Below are positions 16,411 through 24,263 of a stretch of DNA of 33,469 nucleotides, one piece after another. The number at the start of each line of letters is the position of its first letter. Positions within the stretch are counted from its first letter, which is position 1. A model generated the notes under the pieces. It made no database searches. It was not told where the DNA came from and saw nothing but the letters and a program-made list of their open reading frames with translations. The position numbers were made by a program, and so were the translations under genes. The stretch covers positions 1 through 33,469 of the forward strand of contig JAENWQ010000004.1 of assembly GCA_016649855.1 (NCBI GenBank). Direction: 5' to 3'. This DNA comes from Actinomycetota bacterium. GTDB lineage: Bacteria; Actinomycetota; CADDZG01; WHSQ01.

Positions 16411-17022
16411 CTAACCGGGGTTGGGCTCGCTCTCGAGGATGTCCGTCGCCACCTGCGCCATCGAGATCCGCTCGTCCATCGCCCGCTTCTGGATGTGCCG
16501 GAACGCCTCGGCCTCCGACATGCCCCCCGAGTCGATCAAGCGTCCTTTGGCCCTGTCGACCAATTTGCGGGTCTCCAGCTGCTTCTCTAGGGACTCGTTC
16601 TCCCCCTTCACCTGGGCCATCTCCTGGTAGCGGGCCAAGGCGATCTCGATCGCGGGCAGGAGATCCGACTTCTGGAACGGCTTGACCAGATAGCCCATCG
16701 CCCCCGCCTCCGCTGCCCGGTGGACCAGGTCCCTCTGCGAGAACGCGGTCAGGATCAACACCGCCGCGAGGTCGTCGTTCACGATGCTCTCAGCCGCCGT
16801 GAGCCCATCGGTCCCCGGCATCTTGATGTCCATGATTACGAGATCGGGCGAGCGCTCGGAGGCCAACCGCATCGCGGCGTCACCGTCGGCCGCCTCGCCG
16901 ACGACCTCGAAACCCTCCTCCTCGAGCATCTCCTTCAGATCGAGGCGGATGATCGCCTCGTCCTCGGCGATGAGGACGCGTGCCGCGGGAGAAGGAGGAG
17001 AGGAGGGGGCCTGGTCCGTCAT
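16411..17022 (-). CDS. Response regulator with REC and ANTAR RNA-binding output domain
   Basis: MTDQAPSSPPSPAARVLIAEDEAIIRLDLKEMLEEEGFEVVGEAADGDAAM...VIMDIKMPGTDG; ANTAR LVDRAKGRLIDSGGMSEAEAFRHIQKRAMDERISMAQVATDIL. Confidence 0.94.
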   Translation of the reverse strand: MTDQAPSSPPSPAARVLIAEDEAIIRLDLKEMLEEEGFEVVGEAADGDAAMRLASERSPDLVIMDIKMPGTDGLTAAESIVNDDLAAVLILTAFSQRDLVHRAAEAGAMGYLVKPFQKSDLLPAIEIALARYQEMAQVKGENESLEKQLETRKLVDRAKGRLIDSGGMSEAEAFRHIQKRAMDERISMAQVATDILESEPNPG

Positions 17023-17300
17023 CAGGCGTTGAGCATCCGGTCGAGGAGACGGTCCTGCTCGCGCTGGAGATCGTCGATCTCCGAGTTGACCGACGACCGC
17101 TGGCCGACCAGACGCTCGTAATCGTCCCTCGCGATCCGGAACTCCCGGTCGGCGATGGGCGTCTCGGAGACCAGCATGCGCGTCTTGGCTTCCTCGAGGA
17201 CGTCCATCTGGAACAGGATCTGCTCCTCGACGATGCGCAACTCGCCCCGGGCCCGGGCCAGTCGTTCTCGGAGTTGGGTCAAGCTCTTCTGGATGTGCAT
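17022..17300 (-). CDS. Small coiled-coil protein of unknown function
   Basis: 92 aa MHIQKSLTQLRERLARARGELRIVEEQILFQMDVLEEAKTRMLVSETPIADREFRIARDDYERLVGQRSSVNSEIDDLQREQDRLLDRMLNA; TGATG overlap with the ANTAR gene. Confidence 0.75.
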   Translation of the reverse strand: MHIQKSLTQLRERLARARGELRIVEEQILFQMDVLEEAKTRMLVSETPIADREFRIARDDYERLVGQRSSVNSEIDDLQREQDRLLDRMLNA

Positions 17301-17696: not shown

Positions 17697-18464
17697 TCAG
17701 GCGTCGAGGGCGGTGCGCACGGCGGTGAAGAACGACTCGACCGCGGCGTGACCCTCTTCCACCTGACGCTTGACCACGGCGCTGCCGATCACCACTCCGT
17801 CGGCGGTGGACGCGGCTTCGTGTGCCTGTTCGGGGGTCGAGACCCCGATGCCGACGAGGATCGGGAGATCCGTGACCGCGCGACAGGCCTCCACGACCCT
17901 CGAGGATCGCTCAGAAAGCGAATCCCTGACCCCGGTGACGCCCAGCGTGGAGACCGCGTAGACGAACCCGGTGGCGGTGGCTGCGATCGACATGACCCTT
18001 TGCGGCGACGACGTGGGGGCCACGAGGGGAACCCAGGCGAGACCGTGGGCGGCGGCAGCCGCTCTCAGCGAGCCGGACTCTTCGAGAGGCAAGTCGGGGA
18101 CGATCAACCCGGCGATGCCCCCCGTCGCGACCCGCCGGCAGAACTCGTCCTCGCCGAGATGGTGGATCGGGTTGTAGTAGGTCATCACGGGTCTCGGCGG
18201 GCCGGCGGGAGCCTGGGCCACGAGGTCGATCGCGTCGAGCGGCCCGATGCCACCCGCGATCGCCCGCTCCCCCGCCTCCGCGATCACCGGGCCGTCCATG
18301 AGCGGATCGGAGAACGGCAGCCCGACCTCGATAGCGTCGGCTTGATCGGACGCGAGCAGGTCCGAGAACGTGACTCGGTCGGGGATGCCCGCCATCAGGT
18401 AGGGGACGAAGATCTTCCGGCCCGCCGAGCGGACCGCCTCCAAGTGGTGGAGAAGGGCGGTCAC
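17697..18464 (-). CDS. trpA: Tryptophan synthase alpha chain
   Basis: GTG start overlapping the trpB stop (GTGA); [86 protein letters not shown]. Confidence 0.95.
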
Positions 18465-19681
18465 GAGGTGGCCGCCGCGCGAACCTTCGCGACGGTCTCG
18501 ACGTCCTTGTCCCCACGACCGGAGAGTCCGAGGAGAACCGTGCCCTTCTGTTCTGCCGGTCGTCGAGACGACCGGCTTCTGATGCCCTCCCCGGATCTCA
18601 GCAGGTACGCGAGCGCGTGCGACGGTTCGAGCGCGGGGATGATCCCCTCGGTCTCGGCCAGCGCCGCGAACGCGGCGAGCGCCTCGGCATCGGTGGCGGA
18701 TTCGTAGTGTGCTCTCCCGGAACGTGCGAGCCACGCGTGCTCGGGACCGACCCCCGGGTAGTCGAGTCCGGCCGAGATCGAGTGCGCGTGGGCGATGAGC
18801 CCCTCGTCGTCCTGAAGGAGCAGGCTGCGAGCACCGTGGAGGATGCCGGGCGTTCCGCGGGTGATCGACGCGCCGTGGGCGCCCTCACCGCCCTCCCCTC
18901 CGGCCTCGATCCCCACCAGCCGGACCTCGTCATCGTCGTAGAAACCCCGGAAGAGCCCGATCGCGTTGGAGCCGCCGCCGACACAGGCAACGACCTCGTC
19001 CGGTAGCTCGCCGGTCAGCTGGAGGCACTGCCTGCGAGCCTCTTCTCCGATGACCTGTTGCAGGCTCGCGACGATCTCCGGGTACGGATGCGGCCCGACG
19101 ACCGAGCCGATCACATAGTAGGTGTCCTCGACGTTCGTGACCCAGTCGCGCAGAGCCTCGTTGACCGCGTCCTTGAGCGTCGCCGAGCCCGCGTCCACCG
19201 GCACCAGTTCGGCCCCCAGGAGCTCCATGCGCACGACGTTGAGGTGCTGGCGCTCGACATCGGTCGAACCCATAAACACGACACACGGAAGTCCGAAGTA
19301 CGCGGCCGCGGTCGCGGTCGCTACCCCGTGCTGCCCGGCCCCCGTCTCGGCGATGATCCGCGTCTTGCCCATGCGTTTGGCGAGCAGGACCTGACCGATC
19401 GTGTTGTTGATCTTGTGCGCTCCCGTGTGCGCGAGGTCCTCACGCTTGAGGAGCACCCTGGCCCCGACCCTCTCGGACAGTCTCTTGGCCTCGTAGAGCG
19501 GGGTCGGACGACCCACGACCGCGGCGAGGAGGGCGTCCAGCTCGCGGCGGAAGCCGGGATCGGACCACGCCTCGGTCCACGCCTTCTCGAGCTCCAGGAC
19601 CGCGCCCATCAACGCCTCGGGCACGTAGCGGCCACCGAACTCCCCGTAGCGTCCGTGCTCGTCGACCACCGGGCCGCTCAC
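18461..19681 (-). CDS. trpB: Tryptophan synthase beta chain, with C-terminal-proximal insertion
   Basis: [94 protein letters not shown]. Confidence 0.95.
18546..18586. repeat. Palindromic in-frame repeat element, copy 1 (in trpB)
   Basis: TTCTGTTCT-GCCGGTCGTC-GA-GACGACCGGC-TTCTGATGCC; perfect 10-bp inverted arms; encodes [14 protein letters not shown] on the minus strand. Confidence 0.85.
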
Positions 19682-20493
19682 GTCTGTTTCGCGATTCGTC
19701 GAGACGGATCGCTTCTGATCGTGCCGCCCAGCAATTGCCTCAGCTTGGTGGCCGGGTCCTCCGCGGTCACGAGCGCCTCTCCAACCAGCACCGCTCCGGC
19801 ACCGGCGGCTCTCAGGGCGGCGACATCCGACGGCTCCTTGACCCCCGAGAGGCCGACGAGGAGAACGTCGTCGGGGATCTGGGGGGCGAGCTTCGCGGTG
19901 CGATCTGGATCGACCTCGAAGGTTTCGAGGTCCCGGTGGTTGACGCCGATCACCCGAGCACCCGCCCCGACTGCGATGGCGAGATCCCGTTCGTTGAACA
20001 CCTCGACGAGAGCGTCCATCCCGAGGGCGTGGGTCGCTCCCAGCAGGATGTCGAGCCGGTCACCAACGCAGCGAACGATGAGCAAGACCGCATCGGCCCC
20101 CCAGGCGCGCGATTCGAGGACCTGCAGCTCGTCGAGGATGAAGTCCTTGCGCAGCACGGGGAGCCCCGCCGTAGTCGCGGCCTCCAGGTCCTCGCGCGAG
20201 CCCTTGAAGTGATCTGGCTCGGTCAGGACCGAGATCGCGGCCGCACCTCCCTCGGCGAACAAGCGCGCCATATCGGCTGCGTTCATGTCCGGGTTCAGGG
20301 GACCGGCCGAGGGAGACTCCCGCTTGAGCTCGGCGATCACCGCGGTCCCGGGCCCCTTCAGGGCGGAGGTGAATCCCCGGGGGCCCGGCAGCGACGCGAT
20401 CCTCTGCTCTAGGGCATCCTCGGTGACGAGCTTCTCGAGCTCGTCTATCCGGACGCGTGTGGAAGCAAGGATCTCCTCGAGGAAGGACATCAC
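19678..20493 (-). CDS. trpC: Indole-3-glycerol phosphate synthase
   Basis: [99 protein letters not shown]. Confidence 0.95.
19683..19722. repeat. Palindromic in-frame repeat element, copy 2 (C-terminus of trpC)
   Basis: TCTGTTTC-GCGATTCGTC-GA-GACGGATCGC-TTCTGATC; encodes [14 protein letters not shown]-stop on the minus strand. Confidence 0.8.
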
Positions 20494-20499
20494 TCGACC

Positions 20500-21294
20500 C
20501 TAATCCGACTCGGGGGCCAGCCAGTCGAGGAGGACCTCGCCGATCAGCGCCGGATCTCCGGAGATCGTTACGCGGTTGAACCCCGCGTCCCCGAAGACGT
20601 CCGGAGCATCGGGAAAAGGCGGTAGCGGCTCGCAGCTGGGATCCTCATCCGGGGCGACCAAGGATCCGGGAACCTCAGGGCCCAGGATCTCGACGCAGGC
20701 GCCGTCTGCGATCCGTCCGAGCGAGATGACCAGGGGATGCGCATCGTCGTCGAGCAAGGCTTGCGCCGCGCGACGCGACCCGAGGTTCCCGCCTCCCAGG
20801 TCGACGTGCTCGGCCCCCAGCGCGACGAACGACACTCCGTGGAGTCCGCCGGAGACCCTCAGCGCGCGTGCGAGCTCGAGGAACAGGCCCAGGGCCAGGC
20901 CGGCCGAGGGGAACTCCTCCGAGGTGTCGTAGGGCGCGGTCACGACGACCGCCGGTGCATCACCCGAAGGGGCCCGGGCCACCACGTTCGTCGAGCGCAC
21001 CAGATCGCGCACGGGGACACCATCGAGGAACACGACGTAGCCGGCCAGCTGCAAGTGGCCGCTGATGTACGTCGCCGCAGCCAGCTCCTCCTGGGAGCCC
21101 GCCGGGCGTTCCGGCACGTCCGCGTCGAACTGCTCGGCGTGTCGTTCGACGACGTCCGCTTGGACCGCCGGGGGCCCGGTCGGCTCGACCTCGGGTATCG
21201 AGTCCCCCGCCGGAGAGCACGAGGCGATCAGCAATGATCCTGCCAGGAGAATCGGAAGAAGACGAGAACTCCCCGGTCTCGATCCCGGTCTCAA
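20500..21294 (-). CDS. Lipoprotein with degenerate M28-peptidase-like fold, in the trp operon (start inferred, TTG near 21294)
   Basis: RLLPILLAGSLLIASCSPAG signal/lipobox; AVVVTAPYDTSEEFPSAGLALGLFLELARAL...GVSFVALGAEHVDLGGGNLGSRRAAQAL resembles M28 but lacks canonical ligands. Confidence 0.65.
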   Translation of the reverse strand: MRPGSRPGSSRLLPILLAGSLLIASCSPAGDSIPEVEPTGPPAVQADVVERHAEQFDADVPERPAGSQEELAAATYISGHLQLAGYVVFLDGVPVRDLVRSTNVVARAPSGDAPAVVVTAPYDTSEEFPSAGLALGLFLELARALRVSGGLHGVSFVALGAEHVDLGGGNLGSRRAAQALLDDDAHPLVISLGRIADGACVEILGPEVPGSLVAPDEDPSCEPLPPFPDAPDVFGDAGFNRVTISGDPALIGEVLLDWLAPESD

Positions 21295-22798: not shown

Positions 22799-23124
22799 CA
22801 GAGCGGCTCTACCCTGCGGTGGAAACATGACGTCTCCCCCGTGTGACACGCGGGACCATCGGGCTCCACCCGGTACAGCAAGGTGTCAGCGTCGCAGTCG
22901 TAGCGGACCTCGACGACGTGCTGGAGATTCCCCGATGTCGCTCCTTTGTTCCAGAACTCCTGCCGGGAGCGACTCCAGAACCACGTCGTGCCCGACTCGA
23001 GCGTCCTCTTCAGCGCTTCGGCGTTCACCCACGCCAGCATGAGGACCTCGCCGGTGCCGGCATCCTGCACGATCGCCGGTGCCAGCCCACGGTCGTCGTA
23101 CTTGATGTCGGGAAGCTCCGTCAC
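22798..23124 (-). CDS. hisI: Phosphoribosyl-AMP cyclohydrolase
   Basis: [105 protein letters not shown] overlap with upstream gene. Confidence 0.95.
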
Positions 23125-24263
23125 GGCGTCAGGTCGTAGGGGAACGGATCCGTGAAGCGCCCGACCCCACCTGCGGTTACGACCACGGTGTCCTCGAGAC
23201 GCACGCCCCCGATCCCCGGAAAATACAGCCCGGGCTCGATCGCGATCACATCTCCCACGAGGAACTCGTCGGGCCGCTGGCCCATCCACGGCCGCTCGTG
23301 AACCTCGAGGCCGACCCCGTGGCCGAGCGAGTGGAAGAACCCGGTGGTGAGAGGACCGTCGCCGGTGTGGTGGTCGAAGGTCGGGAAGCCGTTCGAGTGG
23401 AAGTATTCGACGACCTTCTCGTGGGCGTCTTTCGTTCCGGGACGGATCGACTCCATCGCGATCTTGAGTGCCTTCCTGCAGTGAGCATGAAGCTCCTTCA
23501 GCTCGTCCGAAGGTGTTCCGGGGACGAAAGTACGGGTCATGTCCGTGTACGCACCGGATCGTCGATCCCTCGGGAAGCAGTCGATGATGCAGGACTGGTT
23601 CGGAAGGATCGGGCCGTGACCGATCTTGTGTCCTTCGAGGCACGCGTCGCCAGAATGGACGATGATCTCCTCGGACTCGGCCCCCTGGGGCAGCAGGTCG
23701 GCTTGCATCGCCTCCCTGATGAGCTCGGCGGTGAGCACCTCTCCGCTGAAACGGAGCAGTCCGTCGGAGGTGGGTTCGGCCTCCCTCAACATGCGAGCGG
23801 CGGTCAGCATCGCGTTCTCGGTCGCTCGTTGTGCACGCTCGATGCCCTCGAGCTCCGTTGGGTTCTTCCGCCGTCGTCTCATGTCCCAGGCTTCGCCTTC
23901 TACGACCACGTCGACCGCGCGCTCCCTCAGATAGTCCGCGACGCTGAGCCTGAACGATGGAGGCACCGAGATCTTCGACACCCCAAGCTTCTCGAGGACA
24001 CGACGGACCAGCTCGGATCCGAGATCGGAGGTCGCGACGGACTGATCCTTGACCAGCTCGCGGTAGCCGAACGAGTCCCAGTTGAGGAACTCGTCGACGA
24101 CGTCCTCGCGCGTGGCGAAGATCGGCTGCTCGAGGACGCTCCCGACCAGGATCCGCCGCCCATCGGTCTCGAGGAATAGGACGGGATCGCCGATCGGTTC
24201 GGTGATCTCGTGACGGAGCTCGTAGCTGCGGAGTGCATCGTCGTACAGAAGATAGGTGGTCAT
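23121..24263 (-). CDS. M24-family metallopeptidase (Xaa-Pro aminopeptidase-like)
   Basis: 380 aa; metal ligands in [59 protein letters not shown]. Confidence 0.92.

Follow-up and report, generated by a model that had tools for sequence, protein, structure and literature searches.

A degenerate M28-type lipoprotein encoded next to trpC in one family of Actinomycetota

Introduction

The transferrin receptor and nicastrin are non-catalytic eukaryotic relatives of the M28 metallopeptidases; they have an M28-type fold, are membrane-anchored, and are extracytoplasmic. To our knowledge, the clearest non-catalytic M28 proteins are eukaryotic. In actinobacteria, an envelope protein is often encoded between trpE and trpC, which is an old puzzle; in Mycobacterium tuberculosis, Rv1610 lies in this position (PMC5573416). 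Another accessory protein of a trp locus is TrpM of Streptomyces coelicolor, a small protein encoded in the trpCXBA locus; it binds PepA, a leucyl aminopeptidase, and influences tryptophan supply (PMC5036795). A literature search for an M28 protein in trp operons found none; it covered open-licence papers only and thus is weak evidence.

In this study, we analysed a stretch of DNA (the window) that constitutes an entire 33,469-base contig from the 2.5-Mb, 93% complete genome assembly of an uncultured actinobacterium. A preliminary description, made from the sequence alone, had noted between trpE and trpC a degenerate, probably non-catalytic M28-like lipoprotein, here called pseudo-M28. This characterization was strongly supported by the fold, by the loss of all zinc ligands in 13/13 orthologs, and by an inverted pattern of conservation. 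Pseudo-M28 has in common with the transferrin receptor and nicastrin a predicted non-catalytic M28-type fold and a predicted membrane-anchored, extracytoplasmic location; unlike them, it is bacterial, a small single-domain lipoprotein, and encoded in a biosynthetic operon. The bacterial family that it represents is uniform and can be compared with intact M28 paralogs encoded in the same genomes, and its genomic setting hints at a physiological context. The finding also sharpens the old puzzle, in that a structurally unrelated envelope protein is here encoded in the same place.

Results

Location of the pseudo-M28 gene in a his-trp supra-operon

The gene and its neighbors were assigned as follows.

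20500..21294, minus strand: pseudo-M28 lipoprotein CDS, 264 aa, TTG start (basis: orthologs, dN/dS, and structural model)
21217..21294, minus strand: residues 1-26, with the signal peptide and the lipobox (LLIAS-C26); Cys found in 13/13 orthologs, lgt in the genome
21302..22846, minus strand: trpE, upstream neighbor of the pseudo-M28 gene, 7-nt gap
19678..20493, minus strand: trpC, downstream neighbor of the pseudo-M28 gene in every relative with assembled trpC
18461..19681, minus strand: trpB
17697..18512, minus strand: trpA

The order on the minus strand was hisD-hisC-hisB-hisH-hisA-hisF-M24 peptidase-hisI-trpE-[pseudo-M28]-trpC-trpB-trpA, followed by an ANTAR response regulator. The GTG start of trpC was found at 20493, 6 nt past the pseudo-M28 gene. 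The 7-nt gap on the trpE side is peculiar to the window's genus; in G001, a sister species, the pseudo-M28 gene overlaps trpE as ATGA, the usual mark of coupled translation. The earlier picture of a lipobox protein tightly packed between trpE and trpC thus held for the window (gaps of 7 nt and 6 nt), but not for most relatives, in which a reverse-strand PRC-barrel gene intervenes and pseudo-M28 begins its own unit. An Rfam search of the window for a Trp-regulatory RNA gave a tRNA only.

The N-terminus of pseudo-M28 is basic and is followed by a hydrophobic stretch and the lipobox IAS-C26. Lgt is the enzyme that lipidates lipobox cysteines, and two lgt loci were found in the genome. A signal peptide, a lipobox cysteine invariant in 13/13 orthologs, and lgt are the features of a bacterial lipoprotein, and the protein is predicted to be exported. 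The motifs AVVVTAPYDT, GLFLELARAL, VSFVALGAEH, and GGNLGSRRA, quoted in the preliminary description, were all confirmed in the protein.

Two other genes of the window were noted. One, inside the his-trp supra-operon and next to hisF/hisI, encodes an M24 (Xaa-Pro-type) peptidase whose metal ligands seem intact (window 23121-24263, minus strand; also L002:3070-4206 and L003:4454-5593); it is kept in most family genomes. Downstream of trpA, the ANTAR response regulator (16411-17028, minus strand) is of the RNA-binding antiterminator type and is likewise found in several relatives; downstream of trpE in family f15, the PF09534 gene is followed by an ANTAR/response-regulator-like match. A link between ANTAR regulators near trp genes and trp regulation is possible.

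Pseudo-M28 has a predicted M28-type fold

In a Pfam search, the window protein had no match and did not reach the PF04389 cut-off; weak PF04389 matches were obtained for 3/13 orthologs (best E 3e-4). A single-sequence search with the window protein gave a weak match to the 2ek8 aminopeptidase, and a profile of the 13 orthologs retrieved M28 aminopeptidases from the PDB (E 1.6e-7). AlphaFold2 models were obtained for the window protein (pLDDT 86.6, pTM 0.83) and for the divergent ortholog of G007 (pLDDT 89.1, pTM 0.85). When both models were compared with the PDB by Foldseek, M28-type structures came first (E ~1e-9 to 1e-10, TM 0.5-0.65), with glutaminyl cyclases, Vibrio aminopeptidase, and Streptomyces griseus aminopeptidase as the top matches. 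This comparison, which the preliminary description had named as a check, bears out the M28 aminopeptidase-like layout that it had read from the sequence.

Pseudo-M28 shares with the M28 family (PF04389; S. griseus and Vibrio aminopeptidases) the alpha/beta fold, the order of helices and strands, predicted export, and the structural motifs GxxxExxAAxYI, SxNVVA, ELAR, and LGSRR. It differs in that the five zinc ligands are lost, the C-terminal catalytic loop is deleted, the sequence falls below the Pfam cut-off, and conservation lies outside the active site. The best Foldseek matches were glutaminyl cyclases (3pb6 and 3pb7), which are M28-related single-zinc transferases; pseudo-M28 lacks the Asp, Glu, and His that hold their single zinc, and a glutaminyl cyclase identity was therefore ruled out.

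All five zinc ligands are lost

The 13 orthologs were aligned with 11 canonical M28 proteins from Actinomycetota, 7 of which came from genomes of the same family. The altered sites in the window copy were the following.

20926..20934, minus strand: former HxD motif, now P121-Y122-D123, zinc His lost (alignment)
20893..20925, minus strand: former GANDNASG loop, without the bridging Asp and of low conservation (alignment, conservation)
20806..20811, minus strand: former EE motif, now E162-H163, zinc Glu lost and general-base Glu kept (alignment)
20716..20718, minus strand: former SVDM Asp (zinc ligand), now G193 (alignment)
20503..20583, minus strand: C-terminal strand and helix, residues 238-264, with the last-His loop of M28 (YHxPSDT) deleted (alignment)

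Each of the five ligands (H, D, E, D, H) was kept in 10-11/11 canonical proteins, whereas none of the five (0/5) was consistently kept in the orthologs. The column of the HxD His held P, A, or L in 13/13. The bridging Asp of GANDN was lost, the single Asp in this column (L010/G012) falling in an unalignable loop. The second Glu of EE was replaced by H, R, D, V, N, A, or F, and the SVDM Asp by G, T, S, I, L, E, or R; the last zinc His fell within the deleted loop in 13/13. The preliminary description had claimed loss of canonical ligands (Pro for the HxD His, no GANDN Asp, EH for EE), and the alignment with same-genome M28 proteins agreed at all three sites; the replacement of the SVDM Asp by Gly193 and the deletion of the last-His loop go beyond that claim.

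Two catalytic-site residues persist: the general-base Glu and the second-shell HxD Asp, neither of which binds metal directly, were each kept in 11/13 orthologs. This counts against a wholly non-catalytic reading, as residual chemistry is conceivable by sequence, and it would suit a protein that is still an enzyme, by a rebuilt metal site or by metal-free chemistry. Where these residues are not kept (G in place of the Asp; Q or D in place of the Glu), the proteins are orthologs that share the synteny, which argues against this alternative. Moreover, no new conserved metal site was seen among the 13 orthologs: the other conserved His/Asp/Glu/Cys residues were C26 (the lipid anchor), H52, E70, E140, and H152, of which H52, E70, and E140 are structural positions also found in canonical M28, and H152 alone would be unable to make a metal site. 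We consider a surviving enzyme highly improbable. Because every zinc-holding residue has been lost, a role in binding rather than cutting is suggested, and we hold such a non-catalytic binding role to be very probable.

Conservation is shifted away from the former active site

Conservation was measured as mean pairwise identity and compared between the pseudo-M28 and canonical M28 sets. The regions of the former active site were less conserved in pseudo-M28: the HxD-GANDN loop (0.36, versus 0.76 in the canonical set), the EE loop (0.28 versus 0.47), the SVDM strand (0.28 versus 0.52), and the SDH region (0.22 versus 0.47). Other segments were more conserved, namely the RPAGSQEE helix (0.66 versus 0.42), AGY..VPVRDLVRSTNVV (0.65 versus 0.51), the GLFLELARAL helix (0.66 versus 0.52), and the VSFVALGAE strand (0.72 versus 0.55). 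Conservation is thus inverted relative to canonical M28, with the old active-site loops relaxed and the N-terminal half tightened, as is expected when catalysis is lost and the fold and some other surface are retained. The candidate binding face was mapped as follows.

20974..21159, minus strand: most conserved N-terminal half, residues 46-107 (HAEQF..RPAGSQEE..GHLQLAGY..VPVRDLVRSTNVV) (conservation)

These data also bear on whether pseudo-M28 could be an extracytoplasmic receptor whose degenerate M28 pocket is kept to bind, report, or retain tryptophan, anthranilate, or indole. The position with trp genes would fit, as would the two residues kept in 11/13 orthologs; the pocket of S. griseus aminopeptidase accommodates the side chains of Trp and Phe, and L-/D-Trp complexes of this enzyme (1tf8, 1tkf) were among the best structural matches. 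These complexes, however, scored no higher than other M28 structures, and with the metal ligands and the C-terminal loop gone, the ancestral anchoring of amino acids is lost. The pocket-building loops are, in addition, the least conserved part of the protein (mean identity 0.22-0.36), which argues against a conserved small-molecule ligand there. We regard such a receptor as improbable.

The gene is confined to one family and is under purifying selection

The survey covered the 24 genomes of the window's class and, across the Actinomycetota, 397 sampled genomes. Only in the window's GTDB-level family were matches of 278-353 bits obtained; all others among the 397 genomes were at or below 74 bits, and those of them that were read as sequence were M28 proteins. 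Pseudo-M28 is thus a feature of one family, found in no other family of the 397 sampled genomes. The 16 family genomes, which are draft assemblies, yielded 13 full-length copies (the window copy and 12 others), a copy split over two contigs in G015, and a C-terminal fragment in G002; the assembly of G009 lacked trpC. True absence in G002 and G009 was set aside, as the G002 fragment lies at a contig edge upstream of trpC and G009 has no trpC in its assembly. The preliminary description had also called for a survey of trpE-trpC neighbors in relatives: the pseudo-M28 gene preceded trpC in 15/15 family genomes with assembled trpC, representing at least 12 genera, one of them with the C-terminal fragment only. 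The outcomes that the preliminary description had set against its own reading were an unrelated fold, a complete alternative metal site, and absence from the trp operons of close relatives; we found instead a predicted M28-type fold, no alternative metal site, and a gene upstream of trpC.

The 12 other full-length copies were 38-74% identical to the window copy, and all 13 reading frames were open. Between the window and G001, dN/dS was ~0.25 for the pseudo-M28 gene, indicating purifying selection, compared with ~0.15 for trpC and ~0.12 for the M24 gene and hisF (dS near 0.8-0.95); the gene therefore evolves faster than its neighbors yet is clearly constrained. A chance ORF in GC-rich DNA was ruled out by the orthologs, the dN/dS, and the structural model, and a decaying pseudogene by the open frame of every copy and the dN/dS. 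We are nearly certain of the pseudo-M28 identity of these proteins, which form a clade-specific family.

In a tree, the 13 orthologs grouped on one long branch apart from the M28 proteins of the family, with weak backbone support; this placement, weakly supported as it is, may argue against a recent duplication of a same-family canonical M28. Canonical M28 proteins were present in most family genomes, and the window genome encodes a PA-type M28 lipoprotein. Their presence would allow pseudo-M28 to be a regulatory subunit that pairs with and modulates an active M28 (or other exported) peptidase, as in other metallopeptidase families; pseudopeptidases in such roles have been reviewed (PMC11266112), and the pairing of TrpM with PepA (PMC5036795) may offer a distant parallel. 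On the other side, the only linked peptidase gene is the M24 gene, of cytosolic type, and the active M28 of the window genome is of another subtype than those of its relatives, so that no co-conserved partner is visible. Such pairing seems to us decidedly unlikely.

A second, independent set of partly degenerate M28 proteins was seen in other Actinomycetota families (L018, L096, L097, L100, L102, L104). These keep HYD and the SVD-type Asp, and have GANxPG or similar for the EE motif, SDN for SDH, and TDN or similar for the last His.

Candidate promoter and operon context in relatives

A PRC-barrel/DUF2171 gene on the reverse strand was located, in 11 genomes of the family, between trpE and the pseudo-M28 gene, or directly upstream of the latter where trpE was non-adjacent or cut by a contig edge. 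In 9 of these 11, GATACTA stood exactly 5 nt ahead of the pseudo-M28 start codon, a spacing that fits the -10 element of a leaderless transcript beginning at the start codon; by this spacing, transcription of the gene is apparently leaderless. Together with the PRC-barrel gene upstream, it is most simply read as the trace of an ancestral unit of pseudo-M28, trpC, trpB, and trpA with its own promoter; in the window's genus, the PRC gene would then have been lost and the unit fused to trpE. Within the 20-50 nt that precede the pseudo-M28 start (L006, L007, L009-L014, L016), a short region shared between the reverse PRC-barrel gene and the pseudo-M28 gene contains GATACTA/TAGTATC which, being readable as a -10 on both strands, is a candidate bidirectional leaderless promoter.

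A lipoprotein with a tryptophan-unrelated job, merely sharing the trpCBA promoter region, could show the same adjoining PRC-barrel gene and the same promoter-like GATACTA. In G013, moreover, a reverse GAF-ANTAR gene separates the pseudo-M28 gene from trpC, and in sister families f2 and f3 unrelated genes precede trpC. Against such an unrelated job is the position upstream of trpC in 15/15 genomes, which was kept though intervening genes changed, and we judge it somewhat unlikely. That synteny comes from one clade, in which slow rearrangement could explain it, and the his-M24-hisI-trpE-trpCBA order is conserved too; this counts against the reading that we prefer.

The preferred reading, which we consider probable, is that pseudo-M28 is a membrane-anchored extracytoplasmic pseudoenzyme with a binding or scaffolding role, expressed with trpCBA and tied to tryptophan supply; the tie to tryptophan, taken by itself, we put at slightly short of an even chance. 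On this view, the common ancestor of a single actinobacterial family would have captured an M28 metallopeptidase gene beside trpC, after which every zinc ligand would have disappeared, as would the C-terminal catalytic loop. The product may have been retained for non-catalytic binding or scaffolding, a task that would fall to the N-terminal half (residues ~46-107), along with the LGSRR helix, rather than to the old pocket. The protein would be lipid-anchored outside the cytoplasmic membrane and probably co-expressed with trpC-trpB-trpA; in most species transcription would start at a leaderless promoter of its own, and in the window's genus it would belong to that of the fused his-trp supra-operon. 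The role would be that of an accessory cell-surface component linked to tryptophan supply.

Relation to the Trp-associated membrane protein

The preliminary description had stated that a Trp-associated membrane protein fills the trpE-trpC slot in other actinobacteria. Consistent with this, and with the place of Rv1610 (PMC5573416), PF09534 (Trp_oprn_chp) was adjacent to trpE in all 13 strongest loci of other Actinomycetota, with trpC also within reach in 8 of 13. Pseudo-M28 resembles this family in being a predicted cell-envelope protein encoded between trpE and trpC, directly so in the window and G001 and with the PRC gene intervening in the others. It differs in that PF09534 is a membrane family rather than a lipoprotein and was not found above cut-off in the 24 genomes of the window's class; the window lipoprotein had no PF09534 match, and a hidden PF09534 homolog was thus ruled out. 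Replacement of one protein by a non-homologous one, as had been proposed, is a conjecture compatible with the absence of PF09534 here and its presence in this slot elsewhere; in the sister families f2 and f3, however, trpC is preceded by neither gene. With TrpM/TrpX of S. coelicolor, pseudo-M28 would share the character of a non-enzymatic accessory gene in the trpC-trpBA locus (PMC5036795); TrpM differs in being a small protein encoded between trpC and trpB, with unrelated sequence. The TrpM-PepA pairing is a suggestive parallel, with both proteins non-homologous to pseudo-M28.

It is conceivable, though unlikely, that the trp operon co-opted an inactive peptidase as a dedicated subunit, anchored at the cell surface, which would sense or manage, at the membrane, tryptophan, a Trp-containing peptide, or a partner in transport, in the slot of the Trp-associated membrane protein. 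If so, two unrelated envelope proteins would have converged on one step of tryptophan physiology.

In G023 of sister family f3, a small ORF in the trpE-trpC gap (L071:1227-1499, plus strand) encodes a single-membrane-span protein (MRTVAIVVIAVFLLSALYRW...), a candidate third unrelated envelope protein in this slot.
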